Part shown: positions 16,826 through 60,740 of the stretch, in pieces
Layout of the letters: each line of letters opens with the position of its first letter
How positions within the stretch are numbered: position 1 is the stretch's first letter
Assembly: GCA_036172665.1 (NCBI GenBank)
Contig: CM069875.1
Location: forward strand, 23,157,806 to 23,221,805
Reading direction: 5' to 3'
DNA length: 64,000 nt
Source of the DNA: Prosopocoilus inquinatus
Lineage: Eukaryota; Arthropoda; Insecta; Coleoptera; Lucanidae
The notes under the pieces: generated by a model
The model's input: the letters and a program-made list of their open reading frames with translations, nothing else
Told to the model about the DNA's origin: nothing
The model's database searches: none
Position numbers and translations under genes: made by a program

Positions 16826-16837
16826 CTACCCCCTTCT
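16826..16837 (-). other. Polypurine tract (plus-strand primer)
   Basis: On the minus strand AGAAGGGGGTAG lies directly before the 3' LTR start TGTGGCGAG, the expected place for the plus-strand priming site. Confidence 0.8.
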
Positions 16838-16846
16838 TAAGAACGT

Positions 16847-17378: not shown

Positions 17379-17379
17379 T

Positions 17380-20607: not shown

Positions 20608-22651
20608 TATTGACCGCCATCACGCCACGCTTTAAGTCCAATTGGAACCCGTGGGGACACATGACGTCCATACCCAAAATTGCCTCGTCCTCTATGTCTG
20701 CCACCAGTGCATGGTGTTTTATTGGAGTTGAACCAATGGTGATGATAACCTCTACTTCACCGTGGACAGTTGCTGATGTTCCAGTTGCAGTTTTCAGTCT
20801 CCACTTGGTCGGCTCGGTGCGTCCAGATGACTTAATGATGTCGGGTCTTAGTATGGTCTTCGTCGCACCCGTATCCAATAATATGGTGTGAGGAATGTCA
20901 TCAATGGTAACATCCACGAAGACACTGCTGGTTAACTGCCGTAGGGATATTACTTGTTTGGATTTCGTCTTTGGGGGCCTTTGAATACGGGTCGGCGTCT
21001 GCCCCTCTGCACCGACCCGGCTTAGTTTAACTGTGGCTTCCTTGGATCCTGTCTGGGCTTTGAACATCGCCTGCGAACATGTCCTTCCTCCTGGCCACAC
21101 CAGCGGTTTCTTCTGCTTGAAGACCTGTTCCACAATGCGGCGAACATCCTCGGCGGTGGTATATTCCCTGGGTCGCTCCTTTATAACAGATCCCACCTTG
21201 GAATTAGCAGATTCTTCGTCTTCTTCCTCTTGGAAGTCCATAGCCGCTCGCACCTTGACATGCCCTCTTGAAACTCGTCTCGTCGCTTCAAATTCCAAGG
21301 CATAAGCCAATGCGTTCTTGGACGTCTTCGGATGGGTCATTCTCAATGCCTGCTGGTTGTCTGGGTCACAGATTCCATCTATGAAGGTCTGCACCGTCAA
21401 ACATTTGAGGAATTCAACAGGAGCTGTGGGTTATGCCAACTGGGCCAGACGCGCTACGTCCGCCTCGAATTCCTGAAGACTTTCTCCGGATTTCTGACAG
21501 CGATTCCTCAACTGCGCATGGTATACCTCGGTCAGATGGGCCTGTCCGTAACGCATTTCCACCCTATTCACCAGCTTGTCGAAGTCTTCTTGTTCCTCTG
21601 GCGGCATCGTCTGTAGCACATCGATAGCGTCCCCTCTCAAGGCCACAATTAACGAAGTGGCTTTTTCGCTGGCCGTCCATCTGTTCGCCTTTGCTGCTGC
21701 TTCGAACTGTTTGAAGTAGTTGGGCCAAGAAGACTTTCCATCGAAAGTTGGTGGTTTTATTTTCAATTTCGAATTTTCTGTTGGTCCTTCCACAATTCGG
21801 GTTTCATTATTTTCTAGTGTTTCTACTGGTGGCTGATCCCCGAACACTCGCAACCCCGCCATGATTTGTTCCAGATTTTTGATTTTATTATCCTGCTAGA
21901 ATATTATTTCTTCCACATTTTCTTGCAGGTTCCTTGTTTCTTCCGATATTTTTACCACTAGTTGATCTTCGAGTCCTTTTGTTTGTTCTAGAAATTTCTC
22001 GTCGAAATTTCTGGATTGCTCTCGAAATTTCTCGTCTAAGTCTATAGATTGTTCCAACAATTTATTCTGTAATTTGTCGAAATTTCCAGATTGTTCTAGA
22101 AGCTTCTCCTCTAAATTTCTGGATTGTTCCATCAATTTAGTTTGCAACTCGTCTTTGAAGTTTACAGATTCTCGAAGTTCGTCCTTGAAATTTCCAGATT
22201 GTTCTAGAAGCTTCTCCTCTAAATTTCTGGATTGTTCTCGAAGTTCGTCCTTGAAATTTCCAGATTGTTCTAGAAGCTTTTTCTCTAAATTTCCAGACTG
22301 TTCTTGAAACTTCTCGTCCAAATTTCTGGATTGTTATCGAAGTTCGTCCTTGAAATTTCCAGATTGTTCTAGAAGCTTTTTCTCTACATTTCCAGACTGT
22401 TCTTGAAACTTCTTGTCCATATTTCTGGATTGTTCTCGAAATTCATCCTTCAAGATTTTATTAAAATCGGCGGGACCACACGAAATTTCGAAAAGGAACG
22501 TCTCTGGATCTTCACCAGCTGTCAACAAATCGCATCGGAGACGCTGTTAAAGTGCGCCTTTCAAACCACAGGTTTCTAACAATCGTTCTTCCAATTCGGT
22601 TTTTAATTAGGCCACTTTTAAGTCTTTCAACAACACTTTTCTCGTAGCCAT
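20549..22651 (-). pseudogene. Gypsy gag-protease with SAP-like N-terminus and hendecad coiled coil
   Basis: One frame of 701 codons from an ATG at 22651-22649 to the stop at 20549-20551, interrupted by five in-frame stops at 22607-22609, 22547-22549, 22334-22336, 21896-21898 and 21431-21433. The N-terminus (MATRKVLLKDLKV...) resembles a SAP-like segment found in insect Gypsy Gags. Then comes a repeat of 11 residues (EQSGNFKDELR, EQSRNLEEKLL) of strongly coiled-coil character, followed by a Gag core (KPPTFDGKSSWPNYFKQFE, capsid-like) and an aspartic protease with LLDTGATKTIL. No CCHC zinc knuckle is visible between Gag and protease, which is odd for Gypsy; the CCCH finger at the Pol end may take that role (inference). 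Confidence 0.88.
22000..22450 (-). repeat. 33-bp minisatellite coding for 11-residue Gag repeats
   Basis: Imperfect tandem 33-bp units (variants of TTGAAATTTCCAGATTGTTC in plus-strand reading) encode EQS-x-N-hydrophobic-x-x-x-L/F-x repeats. Eleven-residue periodicity is a hendecad, compatible with a parallel coiled coil. Confidence 0.85.
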
Positions 22652-22730
22652 TGCTTTTCTCTGACACTCTACTTATTTAATAATCTGATTAAATTTAATT
22701 TACTTTAAATTGTTTATTTATTTGCACAAA

Positions 22731-22747
22731 TCCGCACACCGACACCA
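22731..22747 (-). other. tRNA primer-binding site of the Gypsy element
   Basis: Reading on the minus strand, one base after the 5' LTR, TGGTGTCGGTGTGCGGA begins with the TGG that complements a tRNA CCA end. Similarity to a leucine-type tRNA 3' end is from memory and unsure. Confidence 0.7.
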
Positions 22748-22748
22748 C

Positions 22749-23073
22749 TGTTACGTTTCTAGGGTTTAAATTAATTTATTTAATTGAATAAAACACTCGG
22801 TGAAAACTTAACCGTAATTTAATAATGCTTACAATCTAATTTATTTATAACAATTTATTTACATACTAAATCCAACTTCGACGATCGCTAATTAGGACTC
22901 GACTGACTCCTGAGTCCACCCCGGCCGATTTTATATTCTACGCTGCCTTCTCGTTTGTTCCAACTCTGGAAAAGTCGAGTTTGTTCGATGGTGGCGTGAC
23001 GGCCGATGACGCATAATAATGAACCGACTTCTTGACGCCTTCAGTGTGACGTAGTGCTAAGTGGCTCGCCACA
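22749..23073 (-). repeat. 5' LTR of the Gypsy element
   Basis: 325 bp, same ends and conserved blocks as 16505-16825. It should hold the element's promoter. Confidence 0.95.
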
Positions 23074-23690
23074 ATATATATTTTATTTTATTTTTCAGGT
23101 TTTTTAGGTCTTTAGGTATCAAATAATAGGGAATTATATTCTTATTTATTCATTAGAATAAGAAGTTTTTTCGGGGTCTTTGGACTATTTATTTTCGCAT
23201 TTCTGTGTTGTTTCGGTTAGCTCTTATTTGTAAGGTATCTGACAGTTAATTTTTGTCAGATACTTGTTGTCAGATATTTGTTATTGAAAAAATAAATGTT
23301 AAGGTATGTGTTAATTAAAAGCAGTAGATAAAGCAGCACTTTATCCGCAAGAGTAGATAAAGTAAACTTTAATAACAACAAGGATAAATACCCTTATCAC
23401 TTTATTTAAATACATTTAAATGAACACATAGTTATTATTAGTGATATTCGCCCTTTTCCATGCTTCAACGCATTTGTATTCTTTTTGACGTATTCGCAAT
23501 ATTTCAGGCAATAATTACTTATTGCCAGAAAAAGAAATTTCTTTATAAACAAACTGAACAATATAATTTGTCTTTCTTCGAAATCTGCTACAGAAAAAGA
23601 AATTATACTTGATGATAAAGTTTAATTGTCGGCTAGTGAAAAAAGAAACAGTTGCACTCATCGATAAATCAATTTATTTAATTTTAGTTT
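23074..23690. other. AT-rich upstream DNA, nothing recognised
   Basis: No ORF or repeat that I can support between the 5' LTR and the first heat-shock-type module. Confidence 0.4.
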
Positions 23691-35934: not shown

Positions 35935-36199
35935 TTTGCAAAATTTTGTTGCAAATCGTTTTTGATTGCAGTGAAAATCTCGAGCGGCCTCTGTACAGCT
36001 GTTTCAGCCCTGCTTGAGGCTTCATCAGCAGAGACGTAGCTCGACATTCCCACTACAGACCAAAAACGACTTGTCCAATTTATTCGCAATTGCGATGTAA
36101 TAGTGATGAACAGATAAAACAGCGACATCTTACTATCGCTTTTTGACCTGACATTGCAGTAGGATAGACAAATTGAAGCGGGATTTGCTCCTAATAAGT
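35935..36199 (-). mobile_element. Hammerhead-ribozyme retroelement, copy B
   Basis: On the minus strand: X segment truncated at its 5' side (starts near CTTATTAGG), then CATCGCAATTGCGAATAAAT, ribozyme, and the right flank CACTGCAATCAAAAACGATT. The 3' end differs after TTTGCAACAAAATTTTGC, so the border at about 35935 is approximate. No inverted X arm and no target duplication was found. Confidence 0.8.
35980..36044 (-). ncRNA. Type I hammerhead ribozyme (copy B)
   Basis: The core CTGATGA lies at 36028-36022 on the minus strand, the canonical box. Stem I: TCGAGC/GCTCGA outside and CTCTG/CAGAG inside. Stem II: AGCC/GGCT. GAAA then ACAG/CUGU for stem III, with cleavage after GUA between 35994 and 35993. 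Confidence 0.85.
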
Positions 36200-36846
36200 T
36201 CGAATTCGTCTCGTTTTTTCGTCAATATATCGCTTATACACTTTTGTGACATCTACAATAAGTATTTCTAAATGAAAAGGACGCTTATAAATTTGAAATA
36301 TTGTACTCACTGCAAAAATTTCCTATAATCTTTCAGTAATTTCCATTTTCGCCAAATCTGGCCTGTCCGTTTGGTACCTTACAAATGATTTTTGTGCAGC
36401 AACTTTCATTCTTTTACTTTAATTTCAGTTTTACTTGTAGACTTCTTAAAGTTGAGAGTTGACTACACCGGTTGATCTATCAGACTTGAAGTGTCACATT
36501 TTGGCATATGTTACAATGACATGAAATTAATTTGTCTAATTTAATTTTAATAGCCAACCTAATAAAATAAAATCATGACCTATTTGATGGTAAATAAATA
36601 AAAAACAGATATTATCTCTATTCGTTATCAAAACAGCAAATTGATGAAAGGTGTATTAATGTATTAAAACTACAACACGCCACAATTTTCAAAATTCACA
36701 CTTTATCAATCACCTAAACAGTGGCTGAAGGCCTTCAGCCTTCGCATCTGTCTGTTGTACAATCCAATCTACCAGTCTCGCTATAGACACAGTTTATTAG
36801 TTACGAGTATGCTTACGAGCAAGAGTACTTAAATGAAAAATTGTAT

Positions 36847-37279
36847 TTAGAAAAATTTTGTGCAAATCGTTTTTGATTGCAGTGAGAACCTCGAGCAGCC
36901 TCTGGACAGCTGTTTCAGCCCTGCTTGGGGCTTCTTCAGCAGAGACGTAGCTCGACATTCCCACTGCAGACCAAAAACGACTTGCACAATTTATTCGCAA
37001 TTGCGATGTAAGAATGATGAACAGATAAAACAGCGACATCTTACTATCGCTTTTTGACCTGACATTGCAGTAGGATAGACAAATTGAAGCGGGATTTGCT
37101 CCTAATAAGTCCCCCATGCAAGGCGGCCATGCTTTTCTAAAACTTTCATTATGCTTTGACAGCAAGCATGGCCGCCTTGCATGGGGGACTTATTAGGAGC
37201 AAATCCCGCTTCAATTTGTCTATCCTACTGCAATGTCAGGTCAAAAAGCGATAGTAAGATGTCGCTGTTTTATCTGTTC
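36847..37279 (-). mobile_element. Hammerhead-ribozyme retroelement, copy C, with 12-bp TSD
   Basis: 433 bp flanked by exact direct repeats GAAAAATTGTAT at 36835-36846 and 37280-37291. On the minus strand it starts with an inverted X segment, a 29-nt loop, then X in normal orientation, the ribozyme, and the 3' end CAAAATTTTTCTAA. The two X arms (37019-37134 and 37164-37279) are perfect 116-bp complements. The 3' end is the same as in copy E, while the 5' ends differ, as expected of target-primed reverse transcription. It lies about 350 bp upstream of the ANKMY1-like start codon. Confidence 0.9.
36891..36955 (-). ncRNA. Type I hammerhead ribozyme (copy C)
   Basis: Minus strand: TCGAGC-TACGT-CTCTG, box CTGAAGA (36939-36933), stem II AGCCC/GGGCT with loop CAAGCA, GAAA, then ACAGCUGU, cleavage after GUC (36905/36904), CAGAG-GCT-GCTCGA. 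All core positions are intact. The self-complementary ACAGCUGU leaves no loop for stem III, so activity probably needs a dimer, as in other short-stem-III hammerheads. Confidence 0.88.
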
Positions 37280-37636
37280 GAAAAATTGTATATTCAACAC
37301 TTTTTATATTTAAATTTAAAACTAATATTTCTTTTCTTTGCATACTTAAATAAAGATTTTTTTTTTACTGAAATGAAGAAAGCTTAGTTTAAATCCTTTT
37401 TTGATTATGACAAAAATATGACAGCATATTTGCTTCTCAACGCAGCATAGTCAAACTTTTCTTCACGTTTCGGGCTTTATAAAATTCAAGTTATATAAAA
37501 ATTGCACCACCTTTAATAACTACACGTGAACGAAATGGAATTATCATTTCATGTTGGTCCACAAATAAATGTATGAATCCAAATTTATTACGTTCAAGTG
37601 TCAGTTAAAAACACAAAACGTCATTACAAAGTCATC

Positions 37637-40600
37637 ATGTTTGAAAATAACTTGCACGAAGTCATCTCCGCATATGTTCCTCATTTTTGCGAGAAGTACG
37701 ACGGTAATTCCAATTTCGAAAACCAAAGAAACGGGTGTGGGTATCAAGAATGGAAAAATGGTGACTTTCAAAAGTACTCCGGCGACTTTCATGAAGATAG
37801 TCTTCATGGAAAAGGGAAATACACATGGTTGCGCCCTTCTCAAAGTTACTTGTATGAAGGTGATTTGTACGCTAATAATTTTGAAGGATATGCCAATTTG
37901 ATACGCACAGACGGCCAATATTTTGAAGGTTTATTGAAGAATAACCGCAGATTCGGGCCGGGTGTTGTGACGTACCCTGATGGAAAACAGGATATTGGAT
38001 TGTGGGATGGTCCGAAATTAAGGAGATTGAGCTGTGTTGTTATGCCAGAATGGGCACCAAAGTTAGCGAGAACTTCCAGCGGTAAAGTCAAACTGTTGAA
38101 ATTTCGGAAGCTCGTACCAATTTGTCCAATCGAGATAGACAATGCTAAGGAAGTATTGAGGGAGTTGGGCGCCAATTCAGAAATGTTAGAAAAATCTGAT
38201 GAATTATACAATAAGTGTATTAGGCACCCAAAAAGTAAATTATTTAATAAGAAACTACACGATCAAAAGTTTTTTGGGCAAATCGATTGCACCATTGAAG
38301 TTGCAGACCCAGAAGCATTGCAGTCTATTTCTCTTCTCTCTGTTGAGAATAAGTCAGTCGATGAAATACTTGAAAATTTATTAGAAAATGTTGATATTTT
38401 AAAGGATGTTCCAAATGAACAAAGAGAAGAAATACTAGCTGAAAAAATGGAAGAATTGAGACAGGAATACTATATGCATTCAAGCGAGAATTTTGTCAAG
38501 TCTTTGTTGGAAACTCTGTTAGAAAATACTGAAGATATGCTGAAATATCCAAAAGAAGAAAGGGTTTTGATTTTTAATAAACTTTTGATACAACATTGTT
38601 TTCAATCGCCGAAAATTAAAAACGATTTCCCTGTAAAGAAAATAGAAGTTACTGATTTATTGGCTTGGAATAACGAAAATATATCCATAGAGATGATGAA
38701 GCATATATTCTTGTATAGAAATATGGAAAACACGGTATCTTTTAGTGTTACTAAACTATTAGCAGGAGATAGGACCTCATTTAATGCATGTGGTGATCAT
38801 GAAAAGATTTGCGTTTTATTTTTAGTTAACTGCAGCGTTGGGAATGAAGAAATTGTTGAAAATATTTTCCTGAATTATGATTTTAATCAAGACTTATGCG
38901 ACGCCAGGGGTAATGCAGGCATAACTTTTGCTGCAGCTAGAGATCGCTGGTCGATTATCAGGAAACTAACCAACGTAGGAGTGAATTTGGACGTTTTAAA
39001 TGATGAAGGCCTTACGCCTTTAATGTTATGCCTACTACGATATTTAGCAGTAAAGAAATCGGTTGGTAACTGGGAGAGTGCCTTTTTAATTAATACCATC
39101 GTTAAACCGGAAGAGGAAGTGGAAGTTACAACAGAATGGCGGCCGCATGTTTCTTGGAGTGACTTGAATCAGGTTTCTGTCACAACTGTATATGAGACAT
39201 ACGCAGATTTGAAAGATGGCTTGGAAAAATTGAACATCCTCAACAAGCCAAATCCATTCACTATTTCAGAATGCAATGACCTACCTATTGATTCGCTTAA
39301 GGATGTTTTCGACGAGATAAAATCCATAGAAATTGACATGGCTTTCAGGAACTTCCAAGAACCTTATATAGATATAAACGGACCAGTTACTCAAGCATAT
39401 ATTTTCGCAACGAGTTGTAAGGTGCCTTCCAAAAAAACAAAAAAAGGAAAAAAGAAAATAAAAGGTAAAGTTAAAGCAAGAGGAAAAGCCAAATCAAAAA
39501 CAAAATCAAGTACAAAATCAAGTACAAAATCAAGAGCAAAATCAAAAGCAAAAAGAAAAAAAGAAAAGTCACCCAAGCCGGATAAATCAAAATCCACCAC
39601 TGAGGAATTTATAATGACAAATAAATTGAAAATTATTTTCACAACAATAAAAATTTTGTTATCTTGTGGGGCAGATCCGAATATTGAACAAGCTCCAATG
39701 CCTCCCTTGATCGTATCCTTATTCTGTGGAAACGAAGAGCTACTGAATTTATTGTTAGCTTCATCGGCCGACCCCAACATTGTCACCATGGACGAAAACT
39801 TGGCACCGCTACATATTTTAGCAATGCTTCCGTTTAACAAAGAAAACGCAGACATGTTAAGGACATTATTGGAGCATAAAGCAAATCCAAATTGCAAAGC
39901 AAACACTTGCCATTGGATGGAGGAGAAAACCAAAATAATTGGTAAGCATGTACCTGAGGGAGAAGATATGGGAAAAACACCTCTACATATATTGTGCATG
40001 CGGTACGATTTTAATGATGACACGGAGGACTATTTACCTCAGATGATCAAGGATCTTATTGATTTCAAAGTAAACGTACGTGAATATTATTTAGGGCACA
40101 CTCCATTTTCCTTGGCTGTTCTGAGGGGAAACTTAAAACTAATAAAATTCTTTTTAGATACGTCCACTGCTAACCCAAATGCAAAATTAGGAGAAGGTAT
40201 GGGGATCGCCTTGATAGTGCCTATTTTAAAAAGATACACTAATGTGTTACCTTTACAAACAGCAATCGACGTATACGATTTATTAATGGAATATTATGTA
40301 AACCCTCTAAAAGATGTAAATGAAATAGGAAACGCGATTGAATTTATGTATAAAGAACACCAAGTGGAAGAAAAACAAAAGAAGAAGAAGAAGAAGAAGA
40401 AAGGAGGAAAGAAAGGCAGCAAAACTTCATCGAAAAGTTCCAAAAAGAAAAAGAGCAAAACTTCATCCAAAAGCTCTAAAAAGAAAAGTAGCAGAAGTTC
40501 ATCGAAAAGGTCTAAAAAGAAAGGGTCGTCCACAGAGGAAATTAAAAACTATTTGCTGGAGTGCGCGAGAAAAATGTTACAGCGCCATCTCCAGTTCAAT

Positions 40601-43087
40601 GCTTTTAAACATTTAGCGTATTTCGTTTTGGAAGATCCAGATTTAGAGGATGAAGTCAGTAATATTTTGATTAAGCTCCTCACTTTATCAGATGCTGAAA
40701 GGATAATTCAAATTTTGCTGCGTAAACGCATATTTTATCCGAACGACATGACCTATTACATTAGCTTACAAATATTGCAACGTATTAAAGACAGCCAAAT
40801 TCAATCAAAAAAAGGCAAACGTAAAAAGTCTAAAGGAGACCGCAGAACCCCTGAAGACATATTAGATAACTTAGATTTTGATACAATCGATCCTGTAAAT
40901 AGGTTCTGCTTAATCGAACCAGAAGTCGATCCAAATAAAGGCAGGTACAAAGTTTGTTTTTACTGCGGTGCAAAAGTCGGCAAAATACTGATAGCGTGTC
41001 CAAAATGCGGCCTAGTCTACTTTTGTTCAGAGGAATGCAACAAATTGAGTATTAAGAAACAAGCAAAAGTACATAAGTGCCGGGTTTTGTTTTACAAGCG
41101 GGAAAAGAAAAAACAAGAAGAATTTTCAGCTTTAGGCCTTAAGTATGAATTTCGTTCCAAATTAGACGAAAAACTGGAAGAACTAAAACGTGATGGCCTG
41201 CTAAGCTATTTGCGACAAGAAGGACGAGGTGATGGTTTAGATATCGATTTTGAACGAGATATCGACTTAACTGACATTGGGAAAGGGAAAATTACTTTTA
41301 GTGTTCGGCAAGGCGTTAAAACACAAAGTATTCCCCTATCGGCTTGGTCTTCACGTGAAACTTCTTTGCAGGAGGAAAGTAGAAAGAAAATCGCAGGCGA
41401 AAAATTCTCGAAATGGGAGGAGAAAACAGGAAAAAGTAAACCGGGAAGTAGAGCAGCTTCATCAGAGAAAAGTGCAGAGCGAAAATACGATGAGACTTGG
41501 TCTGATGTAGAAGAACGTAAACAAAGAGGTAGAAAAGATCGAACAAAGGAGGATGCAAAGTTTAAACGCACGGATAAAGAATCACGGATTGGAGAAGACG
41601 CAAAAGAGAAAAGAAAAGGTAAATATGGGGCAAAAATGAAAGACAGAGGATCCTGGAGCGAAGAACGTTTATTGGGTAAAGATAAAGAGAGCAAGAAAGG
41701 TAAGTCTGATGGAAAAATAAAAGATAGTGGAACTTGGAGCGAGAAAGGTGAAACGGGGAGATACAAAGATAAAAAGGGCAAATCTGAAAGAAAAATGACA
41801 GAGAGGGAAACACCAAGCGTAGAAAGTGTATCGGGAAAACTTAAAAAGAGCAACAAAAGAAAAGCGGATGGAAGAAGAAAAGACAGTGGAACTTGGAGCG
41901 ATAAAAGTGAAACGGGACGATACAAAGATGGAAAAAGTAAATTTGAAAGAAAAATGACAGACAGAGAAACACCAAGCGAAGAAACTGTATCGGGTAAACT
42001 TAAAAAGAGCAAGAAAGGAAAATCGGATGGAAAAAGAAAAGACAGTGAAACTTGGAGCGAGAAAAGTGAAATGAGTAAATACAAAGACAGAAAAGGTAAA
42101 CCTGAAAGAAAAATGATAGACAGAGAAACATCAAGTGAAGAAAGTATAGCAGGTAAACTTATAAAGAGTAAGAAAGGAAAATCTGATGAAAGAAGAAAGG
42201 ATAGTGGAACCTGGAGCGAGAAAAGTGGATCGGGTAAATACAAAGATTACAAAAAAAGCAAACCGGAAAGAAACATGAAAGACAGGGAACCATCAAGTGA
42301 AGACAGTATTGTGGGTAAACATAAAAAGAGCAAGAAAGATAAATTTGGAAATAAAAAGAAAGACAGAGAAACTTCGAGTGACGAGTGTGTTACAGACAAA
42401 CTTAAAGTGAGTAAGAAAGGTAAATCTGAAGAAAAATTTAAAGGTAGACAAGCCTTAAATGGATTAGGCACACGTAAAGGAGGTACAAAAGGCGAATCAG
42501 AAGGAAAAAAGAAGGACATGGGAGATAAAGCTAAAACAAATATGTCTAGTAAAGGTAAAAAGGGCAGATATGGTATATCTGAACAAAAATTGAAAAAAGA
42601 TGTATTTGGTAAAGATAAAGTAGGCCCAAAAAGTAAATTTGAAGGAAAAATGCCAGAAAAAGGAATTGCGACGAAGGCAAAAACTATTGGAGATAGGGAG
42701 AAAGGTTTAGCTGGTGCAGGACGTAGTCTAGTGAGATATGGAAGTAAGAATTTCGGACCAGAGACGGCAGTTAAATGGGAGAGTAAATTTGGCACAGGAC
42801 GGAAATCGGAAAATGCAAAAGACACAGAATTCGAAAAGGACAAATCAAAGATTTCTTTGATCAAATTCCCGTACAAAAGGGGGCAGGAATATGACGACAA
42901 TGTAACATATGCTTATTCAAAGTTATCAAAAAAATATCAGCGTTTCTTGGAAATACTCAGCGAATTTTTTCCGGATTTTGACCTTTGTATGTTGCTTTTG
43001 CCGTACGCTTGCTTCGTCGATGGTCAATTGTATTACAGGTTTCTGGATGAGAGACCTTCCTGTTGTCTATCTTTCAGTACCGTTTAA
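37637..43087 (+). CDS. ANKMY1: MORN, ankyrin and MYND domain protein (ANKMY1-like)
   Basis: An uninterrupted 1816-residue ORF from the first in-frame ATG (37637); the frame is open back to 37577 without another ATG. MORN-type repeats are at about 46-130 (YSGDF, YEGDL, YFEGLL, PDG). Ankyrin-like repeats lie at about 385-468 and 662-852 (SCGADPNIE, APLHILAM, TPLHILC, HTPFSLAV), separated by Lys-rich low-complexity linkers at about 595-655 and 913-970. The MYND zinc finger starts at residue 1107 (CFYCG, CPKCG, YFCSEEC, HKC). The order MORN-ANK-MYND is that of ANKMY1, a poorly studied protein often linked to cilia. The vertebrate protein is about 940 residues; here a lysine/serine-rich tail (about 1150-1740) with 53-residue repeats nearly doubles it. 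The lack of introns over 5.4 kb is odd for this family and may mean a retrocopy or intron loss. Confidence 0.9.
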   Translation: MFENNLHEVISAYVPHFCEKYDGNSNFENQRNGCGYQEWKNGDFQKYSGDFHEDSLHGKGKYTWLRPSQSYLYEGDLYANNFEGYANLIRTDGQYFEGLLKNNRRFGPGVVTYPDGKQDIGLWDGPKLRRLSCVVMPEWAPKLARTSSGKVKLLKFRKLVPICPIEIDNAKEVLRELGANSEMLEKSDELYNKCIRHPKSKLFNKKLHDQKFFGQIDCTIEVADPEALQSISLLSVENKSVDEILENLLENVDILKDVPNEQREEILAEKMEELRQEYYMHSSENFVKSLLETLLENTEDMLKYPKEERVLIFNKLLIQHCFQSPKIKNDFPVKKIEVTDLLAWNNENISIEMMKHIFLYRNMENTVSFSVTKLLAGDRTSFNACGDHEKICVLFLVNCSVGNEEIVENIFLNYDFNQDLCDARGNAGITFAAARDRWSIIRKLTNVGVNLDVLNDEGLTPLMLCLLRYLAVKKSVGNWESAFLINTIVKPEEEVEVTTEWRPHVSWSDLNQVSVTTVYETYADLKDGLEKLNILNKPNPFTISECNDLPIDSLKDVFDEIKSIEIDMAFRNFQEPYIDINGPVTQAYIFATSCKVPSKKTKKGKKKIKGKVKARGKAKSKTKSSTKSSTKSRAKSKAKRKKEKSPKPDKSKSTTEEFIMTNKLKIIFTTIKILLSCGADPNIEQAPMPPLIVSLFCGNEELLNLLLASSADPNIVTMDENLAPLHILAMLPFNKENADMLRTLLEHKANPNCKANTCHWMEEKTKIIGKHVPEGEDMGKTPLHILCMRYDFNDDTEDYLPQMIKDLIDFKVNVREYYLGHTPFSLAVLRGNLKLIKFFLDTSTANPNAKLGEGMGIALIVPILKRYTNVLPLQTAIDVYDLLMEYYVNPLKDVNEIGNAIEFMYKEHQVEEKQKKKKKKKKGGKKGSKTSSKSSKKKKSKTSSKSSKKKSSRSSSKRSKKKGSSTEEIKNYLLECARKMLQRHLQFNAFKHLAYFVLEDPDLEDEVSNILIKLLTLSDAERIIQILLRKRIFYPNDMTYYISLQILQRIKDSQIQSKKGKRKKSKGDRRTPEDILDNLDFDTIDPVNRFCLIEPEVDPNKGRYKVCFYCGAKVGKILIACPKCGLVYFCSEECNKLSIKKQAKVHKCRVLFYKREKKKQEEFSALGLKYEFRSKLDEKLEELKRDGLLSYLRQEGRGDGLDIDFERDIDLTDIGKGKITFSVRQGVKTQSIPLSAWSSRETSLQEESRKKIAGEKFSKWEEKTGKSKPGSRAASSEKSAERKYDETWSDVEERKQRGRKDRTKEDAKFKRTDKESRIGEDAKEKRKGKYGAKMKDRGSWSEERLLGKDKESKKGKSDGKIKDSGTWSEKGETGRYKDKKGKSERKMTERETPSVESVSGKLKKSNKRKADGRRKDSGTWSDKSETGRYKDGKSKFERKMTDRETPSEETVSGKLKKSKKGKSDGKRKDSETWSEKSEMSKYKDRKGKPERKMIDRETSSEESIAGKLIKSKKGKSDERRKDSGTWSEKSGSGKYKDYKKSKPERNMKDREPSSEDSIVGKHKKSKKDKFGNKKKDRETSSDECVTDKLKVSKKGKSEEKFKGRQALNGLGTRKGGTKGESEGKKKDMGDKAKTNMSSKGKKGRYGISEQKLKKDVFGKDKVGPKSKFEGKMPEKGIATKAKTIGDREKGLAGAGRSLVRYGSKNFGPETAVKWESKFGTGRKSENAKDTEFEKDKSKISLIKFPYKRGQEYDDNVTYAYSKLSKKYQRFLEILSEFFPDFDLCMLLLPYACFVDGQLYYRFLDERPSCCLSFSTV
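41590..42440 (+). repeat. 159-bp tandem repeat within the ANKMY1-like tail
   Basis: About five imperfect units encode a 53-residue repeat with the order KDSGTWSEKSETGRYKD, then KPERKMTDRETPSEE, then GKLKKSKKGKS. The units are diverged in sequence yet free of frame-shifting indels, so the reading frame seems to be kept. The product is strongly basic. Confidence 0.85.
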
Positions 43088-43551: not shown

Positions 43552-43675
43552 GTAGGTTATTTTTTAACTAGTAGGAGTAATTCATATTTGTCCACTAAAA
43601 ACTCTCAAATGTTGTTGACCTCTTGACAGCCAGTTCAGACAATCCTACAATTTAAACATAAGAATTAAAGTTTTT

Positions 43676-43771
43676 TAAAATGTTGTTACAAATCGTTTTT
43701 GATTGCAGTGAATCCCTCGAGTAGTTTCTGTATAGCTGTTTCAGCCCCGTTTGGGACTTCATCAGCAGAAG
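43676..43771 (-). mobile_element. Hammerhead-ribozyme retroelement, copy D (5'-truncated)
   Basis: The minus strand retains only the inner part of the ribozyme and its right flank (TTCACTGCAATCAAAAACGA). Homology stops just 5' of the inner stem I strand, so the X segment and the outer stem I 5' strand are missing. Confidence 0.75.
43717..43771 (-). ncRNA. Hammerhead ribozyme (copy D), partial
   Basis: The box CTGATGA (43765-43759) and GAAA are intact. The inner stem I is TTCTG/CAGAA where other copies have CTCTG/CAGAG: a compensatory pair change. Stem II is AGTCCC/GGGGCT with a G-U pair. Stem III is ACAG/CUAU with one mismatch. The outer stem I has lost its partner, so this copy may be inactive. 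Confidence 0.75.
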
Positions 43772-49819: not shown

Positions 49820-50569
49820 ATAGTATGAGATCCCACTGCAACTTTTCTACGTTCATCTGTTATTTTAACAAAACACGATTTTAATGAAAGATTACTTATA
49901 GAGAAACACAACGCGACCGGGTTGCTTTGCAAAATCTTGCCGCAAGTACCTTTAATTGGCGAAGTTTCAACAGATCTTTTTCCAATAATTTCGTTCATTT
50001 GTTAGGGCAGTAAGTGAGGTGCCATTAAGTGAAGATCGATCTGACGAATTCGAAAAAACTTGGTTGCCGCCTCTCAGCCTGCCGCAAGTCACTTGCAGCC
50101 AGATGTAAAAGGGACCTCTTTCGTCAATCATCTACGTTCATCGCGTATGGAAACAAATTTGATACCAAATTCGAGCTAAATTTGTCCTCTGCATGATAAA
50201 GTTTGGTTGCCTGCACAAAAGCTGCCGCAATTGAAGGTTGCCAGCATTTATGGTCTTGCTGCAACTTAACATTTCTCTGAGTCTTTGTAGCAAAAGTGTG
50301 ATGTTTGCCCGCAAGAAGTGCATTTTAGATGCGGACGACTGTAGGTACACGATGTTAGTAATGTATGTAAATGAAGACTTTTAGAGAAATCACTGTAATT
50401 ATTCAATTCTATCAGTCTGAAATTTGAAATTATACATATTTAGTGGCCTATGGCTTGTATAAAAATTATTGCACAGACCACTAAATATAATTTGAAATTT
50501 CAAACTGATAGAACTGAATAATTATAGTAATTTCTCTAAAAGTCTTTATTTACATAGATTATTAACATC

Positions 50570-50951
50570 TAAAATAGCGACATCTTACTATCGCTTTTTG
50601 ACCTGACATTGCAGTAAGATAGACAAATTGAAGCGGGATTTGGTCCTAATAAGTCCCCCATGCAAGGCGGCCATGCTTGCTGTCAAAGCATAATGAAAAT
50701 TTTTAGAAAAATTCAATTTGTCTATCCTACTGCAATGTCAGGTCAAAAAGCGATAGTAAGATGTCGCTATTTTATCTGTTTATCAGTTTTACATCGCAAT
50801 TGCGAATAAATTGGACAAGTCGTTTTTGTTTGCAGTGGAAATGTCGAGCTACGTCTCTGCTGAAGAAGCCCCAAGCAGGGCTGAAACAGCTGTCCAGAGG
50901 CTGCTCGAGGTTTTCACTGCAATCAAAAACGATTTGCACAAAATTTTTCTA
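50570..50951 (+). mobile_element. Hammerhead-ribozyme retroelement, copy E, with 12-bp TSD
   Basis: 382 bp flanked by exact direct repeats ATTATTAACATC (50558-50569 and 50952-50963). It starts with an inverted X segment (50570-50710) and continues in normal orientation with a shortened X (from TTCAATTTGTC at about 50712), the CATCGCAATTGCG part, the ribozyme and the 3' end ACAAAATTTTTCTAA. The first ~63 bp and the normal X copy are inverted repeats. 5' inversion plus a fixed 3' end is also seen in copy C. Confidence 0.9.
50844..50908 (+). ncRNA. Type I hammerhead ribozyme (copy E)
   Basis: Outer stem I 50844-50849/50903-50908 (TCGAGC/GCTCGA), inner stem I CTCTG/CAGAG, box CTGAAGA at 50860-50866, stem II AGCCC/GGGCT, GAAA at 50883-50886, cleavage after GUC between 50894 and 50895. 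A further imperfect stem (TCGTTTTTG...TGCAGTG at 50820 with CACTGCA...CAAAAACGA ending at 50932) extends stem I, making a long rod. Confidence 0.88.
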
Positions 50952-51692
50952 ATTATTAACATCATTTACCTACAGTCCTTAAAATGTACTTCTTGTGCGC
51001 AAACCTCGTACTTTTGCTACAAAGACTCAGAGAAATGTCAAGTTGCAGCGAGACCGTAAATGCTGGAAACCTTCAGTTGCGGCAGCTTTTGCGCAGGCAA
51101 TCAAACTCTATCGTGCAGAGGGCAAATTTAGCTCAAATTTGGTATCAAATTTGTTTCCATATGCGATGAACATAGATGATCGACGAAAGAGGTCCCTTTT
51201 ACATCTGGCTGCAATTGACTTGCGGCAGGCTAAGAGGCGGCAACCAAGGTTTTTCGAGTTCTTCAGATCGATCTTCACTTAATGGCACCTCACTTACTGC
51301 CCTAACAAATGAACGAAATGATTGGAAGAAAATCTGTTGAAACTTCGCCAATTCAAGGTACTTGCGGCAAGATTTTGCAAGGCAACCCGGTCGCGTTGTG
51401 TTCCTCTATATGTAATCTTTCATTAAAATCGTGTTTTGTTAAAATAATAGATAAACGCAGAAAAGTTGCAGTGGGATCTCAGACTATGACCTTCATGACA
51501 TTTCCTTTTAATTTGGCGTGTTGTGATGCTTTTCTTTGTATGCATTTTAAATTGACCGCGCACTGGTAACAGCCCACTGGATGCCAGATTAAAAAAACAC
51601 TCCTAACATTTCTAATTTCTGTCGGAATAGAGATATGTCAAATTTTGACACTTAAGCTCGCCAAAAATTTTCGAAAACTCCGTTTCGATATT

Positions 51693-52460
51693 ATGACTAC
51701 GTACTTTGGATTATTTCGCTCCAAAATTCTAAAAAATATCAAGATTTCCATTCCCCGAACAATCAGGAGTATTAGTTCCGAGAAAGACGGCGCGAAGGAT
51801 GCGGGAACATCGTTTGAAGTTGTTCGGCCCGAACCGAAAAATTTCGCAGATTGCCTCGATTTGATGTGGAATATTTACTTTACAGAAGAACCAATATCGA
51901 AAACTCTCTGTATTTCAAGAAACAAGATCTTGGAAAATTATTTGTGTAAGGTACTCTGCGATGGCCACAGCTTCATTGTCAAAACGTTAGACCACGGTTG
52001 TGTCGTTGGTGGTTGTCTGAATACTGTTACATCGCCTGAAGACGCCGAGGATCTCCAAGACCTGGCTTGTTCAGTGACAGATAAGAAACTTAGGACACTC
52101 CTGAAAATTTGGAGCTTTACCAGAAAAAATCCGGATTTGTGGACTGAGCATGGTGTGTCTAACGTATTCGACGTTGGGCAACCTTTTGTTCATGAGTTGG
52201 AGAGGTGCAAGGGGCTCGGCCGCGACCTTTTGTGTAAATCCATTAAATATGCAGCTGAGTGTGGATATCCCTTGGCACGCTTTACCGCAACCGGTAATGT
52301 GAGTGAATGTTTCGCTGAAAAACTGAAACTAACTCTGATACAAGAAATTCCTTATCAGAATTACGTCGACCAAGATTGTAAGCCACTTGTTCAACCACCA
52401 CCTCCAAATTATTGCATGAAAATATACATATCTAAATCAGCTGAAAAAAAGCGTGATTAA
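51693..52460 (+). CDS. Arylalkylamine N-acetyltransferase-like GNAT protein 1
   Basis: A single-exon ORF of 255 residues; I chose the ATG at 51693 (the frame extends upstream only through non-ATG codons). Insect aaNAT-like proteins transfer acetyl from acetyl-CoA to amines such as dopamine, serotonin or tryptamine, in cuticle tanning and amine inactivation. The family's N-terminal motif appears as LMWNIYFTEEPISKTL (about residues 60-75), and the acetyl-CoA loop as RCKGLGRDLL at about 171-180 (R-x-x-G-x-G). The C-terminal strand has ARFTATG and IPYQNYVD. The N-terminal 30 residues are basic with few acids, which could be a mitochondrial presequence (unsure). It is paralogous to the gene at 55396. 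The substrate cannot be told from sequence alone. Confidence 0.85.
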   Translation: MTTYFGLFRSKILKNIKISIPRTIRSISSEKDGAKDAGTSFEVVRPEPKNFADCLDLMWNIYFTEEPISKTLCISRNKILENYLCKVLCDGHSFIVKTLDHGCVVGGCLNTVTSPEDAEDLQDLACSVTDKKLRTLLKIWSFTRKNPDLWTEHGVSNVFDVGQPFVHELERCKGLGRDLLCKSIKYAAECGYPLARFTATGNVSECFAEKLKLTLIQEIPYQNYVDQDCKPLVQPPPPNYCMKIYISKSAEKKRD

Positions 52461-53677: not shown

Positions 53678-55395
53678 CAAAACTTGTACTGAATAGTTAT
53701 GAGCAAAGGGAGGATCTAAGAAAGTGAACTGCTTGAAACCAGTTTGAGACAGCGGCAGTCCGACTCGACGCGGAGGTCTAAATCGAAGTGTTAAATGTTC
53801 CGCCCGCTTATACGTGATTTTTAATCAATCAGTCTAATATCGCCACGGTAACAACGCGAATATAATTCCAGAAGCTAATAACAGCTCTTTCTTGAATTTA
53901 GAAACAACAATTTAGTTGATTTGAATTAAATAGAAACAGGACACGTCTCTGCAGCACACTCTGTCGTGCGCATCGTGTCCGAGCATCGCAGTCAACCGCG
54001 ACATTATTGTGATTCATGCCGTCCTAACGAATGCAGTATTACTTTGGCTTACCGATTGTTCACTATTAGCTAGACGCGCTGCGCTGGCAAATATGTTGAG
54101 GCATGTACACAATCTATTTATAACATCGCACCGCTTCGTTGCAATAGTAAAGTTTTACACTTTTCTCTATCCGCCATGTGGTTATGAGGTATTTACAATG
54201 TAATTTTGTTAGTAATGTCAGATTTTATAATTGGCTGACTTAACTTGATATGATTTTCCCGTTGGTTAGAAAGAATAAAATATAGTATTGCCTTCTCGTA
54301 AACAATACGGAGCTTAGCAAAATAGTGGATCTGACGTTGTACTTCCGAACCCTCTCCGTACATATAACTCCTGATATGTTAAATGTCAGTTTTGGTTAAA
54401 ATATTATTAGGTGGAATGTAAATATTTCATATCAATTACTGAAAATACCATCAACTTAGAAATTAAGCAGCAGTTAAAAAATCGGTAAATTTAGACTGGT
54501 TTTCGCAATTCTTACAAAAAATATTGAAATAAAACTTAGATAAGTTTGAACAATTTATCTTCTGAGAATGACAGATAAATACAGACAGCTCTGCAAACCA
54601 TTTATTAAGAAATAAGGTATTTGATAAATATAGTACATCATTTGTAAAATGTCGTTTAATCACAGATTTAATAACTAACAGATATAAGGTGCTTTCTTTC
54701 GCTTAAAAGTTTGAATCGTGTTTCGAATAGTATGGACCTGAATTTCTTAGTTGTTGCTGACTTGAATTTTTGATTGACAGCTCATTGGTAAATAACGTTT
54801 GGATCGCGATTTTGTGAGTGAAAAAAAGCATCTATAACATTGTTAAAGCTTAGAATACAATGCTTAAGTAAAAGTCGTAAGGATATTGTCATTCATGTTT
54901 GAGACAGGTTGCATTTAATAATTTGTGGGTTTATCTTTGTTAGCTACATATCATCGATTCAGTTTGATTAGTCAGTTTTAAATTTACTAAAACCTTACCT
55001 TTAAAAGTTAAGTCTTATTATAAGTAAAATATATTAGATCTGTATCTTATTCCGTTTCCTTAGCACTTTTACTTAAGCATTGTGTTCCAGGCTTAAGTGT
55101 AAATTCACGTTATTAGTAATTTCAGATTTTACGGTTGGCTGACCTAATTTAATATTATTTTTCACGTAATTTTCCGAAGAATGAAATATATCTTTTTTGT
55201 TTCATAAAATCGGTCGTGGTCGTAAAAACGACGAATCTGACGGAATGTATCCGAACCACTTCCGAACCCCATCAAGTAAGATAAACGTCAATCAAATCTA
55301 GGGACCCTAAGATTAACCGATAATTTTTGAAGTTGACTGTTCATCGTTCACTCATCGTTCATTCCGCCTTGACGTTGTCATCAAAATTCTAAGTG
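53678..55395. other. Spacer between the two aaNAT-like genes
   Basis: Holds two diverged copies of a ~190-bp block (54209-54395 and 55112-55295; shared TTAGTAATGTCAGATTTTA / TTAGTAATTTCAGATTTTA, TTGGCTGAC and TCCGAACC). The second copy sits just before the downstream gene, so it may be its promoter region; the first may mark a lost or unseen gene copy. A small inverted repeat (CAATGCTTAAGTAAAAGT, 54858-54876, inverted at about 55065-55083) frames 54848-55093. Confidence 0.5.
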
Positions 55396-56169
55396 ATGGT
55401 TACATTTTCCAAATCCACCTTCCAAAAAATCGTCAAAAACTCATCAAAACTCGTCAAACCGAACACAAAAAATGTAAACAAGCTAGTATGTAACGCACCA
55501 AAAGAAGATGAGAAATCGGCTCATGTGATTACCCGATTGGACAAAGATGACCACGATCTGTGTCTAAATCTGATGTGGAAGACGTACCTTAAAGACGAGC
55601 CAATATGTAAAGGCTTAGGTGTAACCAAGAATGCAATGCTTGAAGAGTATTTTCGCAGATCACTTTCCCTAGGACATAGCTTCGTAGCTAAACATAGCGA
55701 AACCGGTGAAATTATAGGCGCTTGCATCAATGAAATCGCCTGTTCTTGGTCAGCTGAAGAACTGGATCATCTGGCATGTTTATCCAGGAGGAAACCAGTG
55801 AGGGATTTGTTTAAGTTTTGGGCTTTCATACAAAGAGGTCCAAAACTAGTTTACACCCCACATATTTTCGAAATCGCTCACATATTTGTCTCACGCAAAG
55901 AACGGAAAAAGGGAATCGGCTTAGATTTGGCAAGACGGTCGATGGAGAGCGGTGCTGATTGTCGTTTTTCTTTAATACGCTTGGATGCTACACACGTCAG
56001 TTCAAGTCTGATCGCTGAAAAACTTGGCATGAATTTGGTTTACGAAATTCCTTATCGTCATTATTTGAATCACAATGGGATGCCAGTGGTAAAACCAAAG
56101 CGCAGGAGTAAGTCGATTAAGGTTTATGTAATACGGCCATGGGAGATAAAAAGTAATAAAAAATTGTAA
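55396..56169 (+). CDS. Arylalkylamine N-acetyltransferase-like GNAT protein 2
   Basis: A single-exon ORF of 257 residues from the ATG at 55396, paralogous and in tandem with 51693-52460. The same landmarks are at nearly the same residues: LMWKTYLKDEPICKGLG near 57-73, the GHSFVAK strand, and the acetyl-CoA loop RKKGIGLDLA at about 170-179. The C-terminus ends in a basic stretch (PKRRSKS). The N-terminal 40 residues are rich in Lys/Ser/Asn with one acid, again compatible with organelle targeting. No lesions; likely functional. Sequence identity to gene 1 is low (roughly 35%), so the duplication is old or diverged fast. The amine substrate is unknown. Confidence 0.87.
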   Translation: MVTFSKSTFQKIVKNSSKLVKPNTKNVNKLVCNAPKEDEKSAHVITRLDKDDHDLCLNLMWKTYLKDEPICKGLGVTKNAMLEEYFRRSLSLGHSFVAKHSETGEIIGACINEIACSWSAEELDHLACLSRRKPVRDLFKFWAFIQRGPKLVYTPHIFEIAHIFVSRKERKKGIGLDLARRSMESGADCRFSLIRLDATHVSSSLIAEKLGMNLVYEIPYRHYLNHNGMPVVKPKRRSKSIKVYVIRPWEIKSNKKL

Positions 56170-57433: not shown

Positions 57434-60228
57434 TTAACTATTAATTTTTAAGTCGTAAAATTCATTTACAGAGTAAATGCAATTTTTTAACAGCAAGGTC
57501 TTAAGCTTTGTTTTGAAAGTGTTTATACTACATTTATGAAATTCGCCATCCAACGTCACCAGTTTGTTGTAGAGTTTTGGTCCGATGTAATTGGGGTTCT
57601 GTTGGCCTGCCGTAAGTCTTGAAAATGGAACTTGTATTTCGTTGTTTGTTCTTGTATTGTACTGATGTAAATCTGACCTTTTTGGTTGTCTGGATTTTTT
57701 TCTCGTGAATATAATCAGAGAATACACATACAAAGCAGGAAAAGGTAATATTTCTAAAGCTTTGAACAATTCCCTACACGATGTTTGTAGTGGTACTCCC
57801 ATCATTAGTCTTATGACTTTCTTTTGCATTGCGAACACTTTGTGTCTTCCACTTGCCGCACCCCAGAATATCAGTCCATAACTCATTACTGACTGTACTA
57901 GTCCAAAGTACATAAGTTTTAGGACATGTGTCGATACTGTGGGTTGGATATTGTGAATCATATAGCACGCGGTGCTAATTCTTGGTAGAATGTGCTCGAT
58001 GTGAGAATTCCATGTCAGTTTTTGGTCCAAATATACACCGAGAAATTTTGTCGTTTCTACGCACTCTATCGATTTATTTTCGATTTTCAGTAGTACCGAT
58101 GAGTCAACTGTTTTGTTTTTTATGCAGAAATCTACCACCGTTGATTTTTCGGCGTTGAGCACAATTCCGTTTCGCTTACACCATTGTATCACTCCATAAA
58201 TACAACTTCTTGCTTCGGCGATTCGATTTTGTAAATTTCCGTCGATTATCACGTTAAAGTCGTCCGCGTACAGTACTGCTTTTCCGTTTTCGGTGATTGT
58301 TTGCGGAAGATCGTTAATGAAGCAGTTGAATAATGTGGGGGATATGCACGAACCTTGTGGCACTCCTTTTCTAATAATTTGGTCTGACGATCTATTGCCA
58401 TTGATTTCAACTATTTGTACACGATCTGCGAGGTACGTCTTGATCCAGCTTCCGGCGGTTCCTCTTACACCCATTTGTTCTAACTTCTCGGTAAGTAGAT
58501 GGTGGTCTATGGTGTCAAAGGCGCGGCTCATGTCAAAGAATAAACCGAGGGGTTGTTTTTTGTCGTTGAGGTTTTCGTGTATGAAGTCAATGGCATCCTC
58601 CAAGGCTGTTTGTGTTGATCGATTTTGTCTGAATCCGTTTTGTGTGTGAGTTAACAGATCGTTTTTTTCCAGGAAGGAATTTAATCGAGAGTTAAAACAG
58701 CTATCAAATATTTTTGCTATTTGACTTTGCAAGGCTACGGGTCTGTAGTTTTTTACTTCTGTTATTTTTCCTTTTTTTAACACTGGTGTTGATTTTTGAC
58801 GTTTTCAGCTGGTCTGGATATGTTCCTTCTACGAAGCTCTTATTAATGATGGTTACCAGGGGTTTTGCGAGGTCTTTATGCACGCGTAGTAGCACTGTTC
58901 CCGGTAGTTCGTCTATTCCTGACGATCTTTTTTTCCAGGTTTTTTTCATAGTTTTAATAATTTCTGTGGTGTCCGTTGGATTTAAATAGAGGGATGTTGG
59001 ATTCCTTTCAATATTTGGTTCTTTTGATAATGGTGTTGGGCTGTTGTTTGCAACGTCGGCAAAGTATTCGTTAAATGTATTACAGACATCTAGCATGATG
59101 CTTTTCTCACTGCCACTCGTATCATTTATTTCATTAATTTTAAATCTGATTTTTTGAGGTTGGTTTTCTTTAATGATGTTCTAACATTCTTTATTTTTGT
59201 TAGTTGCCATCATAATACGGTTGTCGTGATATCTTGTCTTAGTGAGCTGGATAATTGTTTCATAGTAAGCTTTAAACTCGATATATCTTGCATTATAATA
59301 ATCACTTTTTAATCTTTTGTTGAGTACATGCATTTCTTTTAACAAATGCGATGCTTCAATAATTTCTTTCGTTATTCACATATCTCTTGTTTTTTTAACT
59401 GGTTTATGACGTATTAGTGGAAATTTTTTTTCGAATACTTCTTTTAATTTCTTATAGAATGCATTAAATAGTTCATTGGTGGAGGAGACGTCTGTAAGTA
59501 TCTCATTCCAATTTGTACCTGATATGTCTTGTTGGAACCTTTGAATATTAAGTTCGCTATATATTCTTCGCATCGTGTCTTCCATTACAAGGGGTTGATA
59601 TTCTATTTCGGCGATTTGGAAGGTGTGATCGGAAAAATATGAGTCGTGAACAGAAGGCTCTCTAAATGGTCTATCTGTAAATATGTTGTCGATACACGTC
59701 CCACCCCTGCTTGTGATTCTTGTAAGTTCGTATATTTTTATGTTATATTCGAGTAACAAATTTAGTAGTGAGTTGGAGCTTTTGCTGCTTACGAGTAGAT
59801 CGACATTAACATCCCCGCATATAATATGTACGTTACCCGGTTTGTATATTTTCTCCAATGTCATGTTTCAATTTTTCCAGAAACAAATCAAGGTCCGATC
59901 CTGGAGATCTATACACTGCGCAAATCGTTATTTTCCCGACTAAGGTTAGTTGGCATTCGACCGCGCACATTTCGAAAGTTTTTTCTTCGCAAATTATACA
60001 GTTCACGGCTTCAAATTTAATATTGTTCTTACCTATAATGCAAACCCCGCCACCTTTACTGCGAGTTCGGCAGTAGGCACTAATTACACGATAGTTATTA
60101 AAACTTAAAGTGTTAATGTCATCACTTTGAAAATGTTCGTTCAAACAAAGCACATCTATATTATATTTTTGTAATATCACCTTAAGTTTGTCAACTTTTT
60201 TTGTTAAACTTTGTATGTTAAAGTTCAT
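57434..60228 (-). pseudogene. LINE ORF2: AP endonuclease and reverse transcriptase
   Basis: Starts at the ATG 60228-60226, sharing one base with the ORF1 stop (TAATG). Endonuclease: MNFNIQSL, the NEHF Glu, YRSPGSD, the GDVNVD motif after a frameshift near 59870, IDNIFTD and SDHTFQ. Then a linker with two stops (about 59376 and 59180). RT: NYRPVALQSQIAKIFD, GFRQNRSTQTAL, FFDMSRAFDTIDH, GVPQGSCISPTLF, YADD at about 58259-58270, and KFLGVYLD. A single-base shift in an A run near 58800 separates the linker from RT. The RT frame itself (57434-58783) is still fully open, 449 codons. Confidence 0.92.
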
Positions 60229-60740
60229 TATGCGGAAATAGTGGGTTGAGTTTTCTTTTTCCCTAAAAAAGAGGTGCTTGTTTTCTTGAAGTAATACCTT
60301 GTTAATAACGTGCCCCGTGGCCACAGGTCCGGATTCATTATTTTGTCCTTCGCGTCAAATGGTGCACGAATTTTAAACGAACTCATGCTTTCACTGTTTT
60401 TGAGTTTCAGTTTTTCACTGTCAATTTCACAAATGTTTCGTAGATGTGTTTTAATGTCATCTTCGGTTGTATTTTTATGCAATTTTGTAACGAAGATCCA
60501 CGCACTTTTTTCTGTTGCTTTCAGAGCGTTTAATTTACCGTCGTATCTGCCTTCGATAAAATCGTTTTGTTTACGTTTTTTGTTACTTACCCGTACGTGT
60601 GTACGTTCGTTGCTTTTGTTTACTTCGGCTGGCGATTCTAATGTATCTATTCTCCGTGGCGGCGTTGTTGTCTTCTCTATTGGGCTGTTGTCATTTTCTT
60701 TGTTTTGATTGTCGTTAATTAGTATTTCCTCAAATGATCA
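60228..60740 (-). pseudogene. LINE ORF1, C-terminal part
   Basis: An open frame of about 170 codons ending at the TAA 60230-60228. Contains SAWIFVTKLHKNTTEDDIKT and SFKIRAPF followed by DLWPRGT, the conserved C-terminal region of insect LINE ORF1 proteins (nucleic-acid-binding). The N-terminal half is missing through 5' truncation. Confidence 0.8.

Follow-up and report, generated by a model that had tools for sequence, protein, structure and literature searches.

The 64,000-nucleotide stretch of the Prosopocoilus inquinatus genome (Coleoptera, Lucanidae; genome size about 650 Mb) that was analysed here, referred to as the window, contains five copies of a type I hammerhead motif, and this raises the question of what kind of element carries them and by which route that element was inserted. 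An earlier note on this DNA had described a dispersed ribozyme family and had connected it with retrozymes and Penelope-like elements; the positions and strands that it gave are correct for all five copies, and both the type I assignment and the association are supported by the results below. The copies are nevertheless more than dispersed ribozymes, as they belong to a non-coding retrozyme of 310-312 nt, partly very young, and two of them, D and E, are complete insertions with target duplications. Inverted arms, target duplications and fixed ends are features that the earlier description did not include.

Hammerhead copies of the window and their retrozyme unit

Positions within the unit are given on a ring, which is one real unit numbered from the first base after the cleavage site. 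Two places on this ring recur as outer ends of insertions, namely alpha, before the ribozyme hairpin (ring 185-212), and omega, some 50 nt downstream of the cleavage site (ring 40-75); the two arcs, which were defined once the data had been inspected, together make up 64 of the 310 ring positions. The features of the five copies are as follows.

50559-50569, plus strand: copy E, 5' target-site duplication, TTATTAACATC
50570-50708, minus strand: copy E, antisense arm, starting at alpha (ring position about 190-198)
50712-50952, plus strand: copy E, sense arm with ribozyme, ending at omega, TTTTTCTAA
50844-50908, plus strand: copy E, type I hammerhead, predicted cleavage 50894/50895, 25.8 bits
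50953-50963, plus strand: copy E, 3' target-site duplication
37280-37291, minus strand: copy D, 5' target-site duplication, ATACAATTTTTC
37135-37279, plus strand: copy D, antisense arm
36847-37134, minus strand: copy D, sense arm with ribozyme, ending at omega
36891-36955, minus strand: copy D, type I hammerhead, predicted cleavage 36905/36904
36835-36846, minus strand: copy D, 3' target-site duplication
35944-36199, minus strand: copy C, sense arm only, 5'-truncated, with an omega end
35980-36044, minus strand: copy C, hammerhead
754-1060, plus strand: copy A, a single complete lap with alpha on one side
811-875, plus strand: copy A, hammerhead with a changed base at 15.1
43663-43769, minus strand: copy B, old truncated sense fragment
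43717-43771, minus strand: copy B, hammerhead remnant

Copy D occupies 36847-37279 (433 nt) and is flanked on both sides by the 12-bp target duplication ATACAATTTTTC, while copy E occupies 50570-50952 (383 nt) between two copies of the 11-bp duplication TTATTAACATC; in both, an antisense arm is followed by a ribozyme-bearing sense arm that ends in TTTTTCTAA. Scoring of the flanks found no clear target duplication for copies A, B and C. Copy E lies within an inverted-repeat element at 49820-51487, whose 508-nt arms are 93% complementary and separated by 652 nt, and that element is therefore the older of the two.

The catalytic core, taken as CUGANGA, GAA, an A-U pair at 15.1-16.1 and H at position 17, is intact in copies C, D and E, as had been noted before, and the predicted cleavage sites of D and E are also those proposed earlier; copy A has a G at 15.1, and copy B has lost one stem III pair together with the outer part of stem I. 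The view that translated frames over the ribozyme are read-through only agrees with the finding that no frame of at least 140 codons overlaps any of the five copies. Covariance-model support, which the earlier note had proposed to seek, was obtained in part: on short stretches the window copies stay below the gathering thresholds of Rfam, with Hammerhead_1 (RF00163, gathering 34) giving 25.8, 17.3 and 13.5 bits for E, A and B and Hammerhead_HH9 (gathering 52) giving 16.3 and 15.2 bits for D and C, whereas seven relatives in the same genome exceed the Hammerhead_1 gathering score. Two of these seven share one duplicated segment and they thus represent six distinct places. A scan of the whole 64-kb window with Rfam lists no hammerhead at E<=1, so that Rfam alone would miss this retrozyme family.

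An alignment of 20 genomic copies (15 distinct) places 84.4% of cells in pairs under the named hammerhead structure, compared with 25.9-45.2% under slid versions of it; in the same set 9 of the 18 pairs carry changes on both sides, and the covariation score is 0.272, compared with 0.198 for shuffled sets (0 of 500). Covariation is found across the three-stem hammerhead, although stem III is uninformative in this respect because it is nearly invariant, and the outer part of stem I is just 66.7% paired. Taken together, the relatives above gathering, the pairing and the covariation show that the hammerhead copies have more than a chance resemblance to this ribozyme.

The repeating unit, previously put at about 315 nt, is well approximated by that figure, as direct laps lie 312 nt apart at locus L011 and 305-314 nt apart, mostly 312, in 13 of the 38 clusters of a second genome search. 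Its GC content is 40.6%. Compared with 30 mononucleotide shuffles per unit, the predicted ring folds gain in stability for six sense units (z -4.9 to -9.0) and, by a smaller margin, for five antisense units (z -2.6 to -3.7); two chimeric units of L011 were left out of this fold set. The predicted sense folds contain a long extension of stem I, and their minima mispair the ribozyme core (GCUG with CAGC), which would imply that the activity of a single-copy ribozyme may be weak. Stem III consists of two pairs closed by a palindromic AGCU loop, and from this model dimeric activity seems possible, as has been reported for salamander ribozymes (PMC7229834). The ribozyme region of copy E recurs at 99-100% identity in the best 40 of 507 candidates, copy E included, and these relatives indicate that the retrozyme family has been recently active. 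The query used for that search extends just 3 nt beyond omega into host DNA, where any match would stop; since the query end forces this stop, the search was dropped as independent proof of omega.

Several other elements occupy the window. A Gypsy-like LTR retrotransposon at 16505-23076 is bounded by direct repeats (16505-16828 and 22749-23076, 91-93%), has RT/RNase H and integrase-like frames on the minus strand and includes a 33-nt repeat array at 21953-22473. An open frame of 1836 codons at 37577-43087 (plus strand) encodes MORN and ankyrin repeats and contains a lysine-rich 159-nt tandem array at 41632-42378. Two similar frames at 51570-52460 and 55393-56169 (plus strand) have no Pfam match and, judged by eye, presumably resemble insect arylalkylamine N-acetyltransferases. 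A LINE at 57434-60737 (minus strand) has an RT and a weak endonuclease match, and five of its eight genome matches, the window's own included, reach 99-100% over the full query. Elsewhere in the assembly, the small contigs C19, C26, C52, C94 and others hold LINE arrays with long open frames on both strands and two recurring score classes, which we take to resemble telomeric LINEs.

Anatomy of the insertions across the genome

The layout of copies D and E was compared with that of further copies in 37 mapped stretches, comprising 30 search loci, the loci L011, L013 and L016 and four stretches of the window. Copy A was the query of the first DNA search, in which the best 40 of 4305 candidates were scored; as this query ends at alpha, alpha ends may be over-represented. 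For the second search the query was taken from the interior of copy D, and the best 40 of 187 candidates were scored. All copy numbers are accordingly lower bounds. Two loci were left out as repeats of others, L014 being a 99.8% duplicate of L013 and L017 being the copy A locus, and four (L009, L010, L012 and L015) as divergent families that were left unmapped; L022 and L026 have one common flank and are not independent. L013 and L014 belong to a 9.86-kb stretch present at two places of contig C5 at 99.8% identity, with retrozymes inside. At L010, positions 2025-2762 are made up of three tandem units of 246 nt that are 99.6-99.8% identical, and a divergent hammerhead lies in the same 10-kb stretch.

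At least 49 distinct insertions were mapped, of which 25 have one alpha and one omega end, 4 combine an alpha end with a short tail at omega, 10 have alpha only, 8 omega only and 2 neither. All 32 two-strand insertions among them are arranged head to head, antisense then sense, and the reverse order occurs in none of the 32; one of them, at locus L032, is compound. The second search gave the same antisense-then-sense order in 19 of 19 two-strand clusters. The 64 outer ends of the 32 insertions fall at alpha in 33 cases, at omega in 27 and elsewhere in 4, and they combine as 25 alpha/omega, 2 alpha/alpha and 1 omega/omega pairs, the remaining 4 insertions having another end. The inner junctions of the 25 alpha/omega insertions are no more clustered than random ones, the best 20-nt arcs holding 5 and 6 of 25 compared with a random mean of 4.9 of 25.

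The ends of the alpha/omega insertions are also marked in the flanking DNA. A duplication score of at least 9 was reached by 17 of these 25 insertions, compared with 3.8% of 600 swapped pairs, and by 4 of the 22 remaining scored insertions; a clear duplication is missing in 8 of the 25. Where a clear duplication is present, which is the case in 21 insertions, its length is 11-14 bp as a rule, with one case scored as 16 that includes a mismatch. The reconstructed pre-insertion sites are 78% AT, compared with 65% in the window. In addition, the end of the duplication that adjoins alpha matches the unit just beyond its start, and this microhomology amounts to 40 nt over 20 insertions where 10.9 would be expected (0 of 20,000 permutations), which is the trace expected if the 3' end of a DNA strand had primed on RNA.

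The length of the arms provides information on the template. One antisense arm at L023 measures 713 nt, or 2.3 laps, an arm of 775 nt at L035 is likewise longer than one unit, and the longest of the 38 clusters of the second search extends over 1,477 nt; arms of more than one unit imply a circular or multimeric template. Laps differ by 6.2% within one insertion and by 8.6% between insertions, and rare variants recur in laps of the same insertion in 16 of 303 cases, compared with 1.0% between insertions, data which favour one template per insertion. The lap of the same insertion is the nearest relative in just 23 of 88 comparisons, most copies being too old for lap identity. This template could in principle have been a linear multimer transcribed from tandem copies, with no ring involved, since read-through of the tandem laps present in the genome could yield one, and since hammerhead cleavage was reported to be dispensable for Penelope-like insertion in vitro (PMC11167929). 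We regard such a transcript as a real but rather doubtful candidate, because multimers should be cut by an active ribozyme, because the arms of the 38 clusters contain three direct laps at most, and because the two arms of copy D show 0 differences over 115 common positions, against a difference of 1.7% from the nearest other copy.

A probably Penelope-like element with the same layout

A search of the genome for the GIY-YIG domain provided a comparison with an autonomous element: the best 150 of 2232 candidates form 102 clusters, and all 47 two-strand clusters among them are head to head. RT and GIY-YIG domains were read in one frame of this element. This pair of domains is the mark of Penelope-like elements, and by the presence of both the young autonomous element is probably Penelope-like. 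Among the best 120 of 693 database matches the relatives of this frame have both domains as well; of those with a name, the first come from the beetles Tribolium, Aromia and Molorchus, followed by a springtail and mosquitoes, and the name Penelope is absent from these 120. Thirty loci were compared for their outer ends, here called alpha' and omega' by analogy; L074 and L076 were dropped as the same insertions as L073 and L075, and L058 because its arms read beyond omega'. The insertions that show both outer ends (9 of 9) have one alpha' and one omega', and in these nine distinct insertions the alpha' end is without, and the omega' end with, a 40-nt tail.

Upstream of alpha' and omega' there is a hammerhead-like motif that was called by eye, and alpha' and omega' lie at +45 and +85 from its presumed cut; Rfam did not recognise the motif in the 12 of 30 loci submitted to it. 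For a purified Penelope-like protein, cleavage and extension of both DNA strands have been reported, with synthesis beginning inside its own RNA at 111-118 nt of the frame and the hammerhead cut placed at 26 (PMC11167929); by subtraction these starts lie 85-92 nt after the cut, next to the +85 of omega' here. According to the same source, the tail is the stretch between two start sites. Penelope elements have furthermore been described with inverted pseudo-LTRs and 8-10-bp duplications (PMC3846280). Another hammerhead-like motif, of the Penelope pseudo-LTR type and likewise called by eye only, is found at 16382 on the minus strand of the window (CTGAGGA ... GAAATACGTATC), immediately beyond the boundary of the Gypsy-like element.

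The retrozyme and the Penelope-like element have no detected sequence in common. The best common word at alpha is 8 nt long and is equalled in 7.5% of shuffles, and the retrozyme unit matches none of the 30 GIY-YIG loci save L048, which holds an inserted retrozyme. Their geometry also differs: the retrozyme has its ribozyme between the two end sites alpha and omega, and in the Penelope-like element both end sites lie downstream of the ribozyme.

Proposed route of insertion and its alternatives

The simplest account of these observations is that the retrozyme shares the two-ended priming of Penelope for its insertion, and it is probably a non-autonomous animal retrozyme that uses Penelope-type priming on circular or multimeric RNA. 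Motif, unit length, duplications, fixed ends, order, alpha microhomology and multi-lap arms can all be read from the DNA, and so can the presence of the same layout in the autonomous GIY-YIG/RT element of this genome. For the remaining steps we infer hammerhead cleavage, ring closure and a Penelope-type enzyme as the mover of the retrozyme. The retrozyme RNA would be cut at its hammerhead and then closed into a ring, while AT-rich DNA would be cut in a staggered manner by a Penelope-type endonuclease/reverse transcriptase. From the two 3' ends of the target, cDNA synthesis would start on the RNA, in most cases from one of them at alpha and from the other at omega. As both cDNAs would be antisense, the arms would meet head to head, and a circular or multimeric template would allow an arm of two or three laps. 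On this account the retrozyme works like a Penelope element and yet is none, since its inserts have no frame and no detected sequence in common with the element.

A different mover may be considered. LINE machinery could have inserted the retrozyme, with the inversions resulting from ordinary twin priming, as L1 twin priming is known to give inverted and truncated inserts with target duplications and a LINE is present in the window itself (57434-60737). This seems unlikely, given that inversion is the rule among the two-strand inserts, that the starts are fixed and that the arms overlap over whole laps. Among the best 150 of 1262 LINE endonuclease matches, 27 neighbour pairs lie within 10 kb and 7 of them are on opposite strands, a weak control because this domain is at the 5' end and is lost by truncated LINE copies; all 7 are on small contigs, 6 of them between copies of different score, and on contigs C1-C12 none of 14 pairs is on opposite strands. 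With a query from the 3' side of the window LINE, 8 matches were obtained, no two of which lie within 10 kb. The unit might also be the pseudo-LTR of a Penelope-like element, solo or inverted, and no independent retrozyme at all. Penelope elements are known to have short duplications and a direct and an inverted pseudo-LTR side by side (PMC3846280), and a hammerhead is known from a Penelope-like element (PMC11167929), but the mapped inserts, taken without flanks, consist of unit sequence only, the unit is unmatched among the 30 GIY-YIG loci compared (the insert in L048 aside), and its ribozyme has a canonical two-segment stem I, all of which makes this origin quite improbable. That DNA-level processes such as foldback or rolling-circle transposons or inverted duplication made the arms, with the hammerhead as a passenger, is hardly credible: copy E does lie within an older inverted-repeat element, but the arms are offset and unequal, the junctions are scattered, the duplications flank the whole insert and the ends are fixed around the ribozyme.

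In comparison with known systems, the retrozyme with Penelope-type priming that we favour agrees in its sequence with the description of metazoan non-LTR retrozymes (PMC7229834) with respect to unit, hammerhead, laps, GC and duplications. These elements have a canonical type I hammerhead, direct laps and no coding frame, as observed here; their units are 170-400 nt long (here 310-312), their GC content is under 45-50% (here 40.6%), their duplications exceed 4 bp (here 11-14 bp) and their predicted ring is strongly self-paired, as is the one described above. In contrast to the direct tandem repeats of that description, the two-strand inserts here are head to head and have two fixed ends, and in most of them each DNA end has its own priming site. 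This head-to-head layout with two fixed sites is a variant feature among retrozymes, and no description of head-to-head retrozyme inserts was found in the literature searched, which was limited to open-licence papers. Plant LTR retrozymes (PMC7761336) are likewise non-autonomous, hammerhead-bearing and explained by a ring-RNA model; they differ in having a type III hammerhead, 4-bp duplications, LTRs and a primer-binding site, whereas type I, duplications of 11-14 bp and no LTR pair were seen here.

Poseidon of Anolis (PMC11167929) and Penelope of Adineta vaga (PMC3846280) resemble the retrozyme in having an inverted beside a direct copy, short duplications, AT-rich targets and two nearby starts that give a tail, and the former source also places a hammerhead before the start site. 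The inverted copy at one end that characterises Penelope is present in 32 of 32 two-strand retrozyme insertions, and a short duplication in 17 of 25 alpha/omega insertions; the frame with RT and GIY-YIG is lacking, as mapped inserts hold unit sequence only. Unlike Penelope-like elements, the retrozyme is non-coding, and its hammerhead is canonical and located between the two start sites.

In metazoan retrozymes, Penelope-like elements have been proposed only as likely helpers (Cervera and de la Pena 2020, PMC7229834). The insertion record described here adds sequence-level predictions on the moving enzyme and the ring template of animal retrozymes, and the many recent copies would constitute a genomic read-out of a Penelope-type mechanism that has been shown with one purified protein (PMC11167929). 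As a tentative proposal, about which we are rather less than confident, the ring RNA may act as a two-part insertion signal in which priming sites flank the ribozyme hairpin and a dimeric Penelope-type RT gives each of them one DNA end, and the same rule would explain the inverted pseudo-LTR and the tail of Penelope. If this two-part signal is true, retrozymes would be minimal parasites of the two-ended insertion pathway of Penelope.
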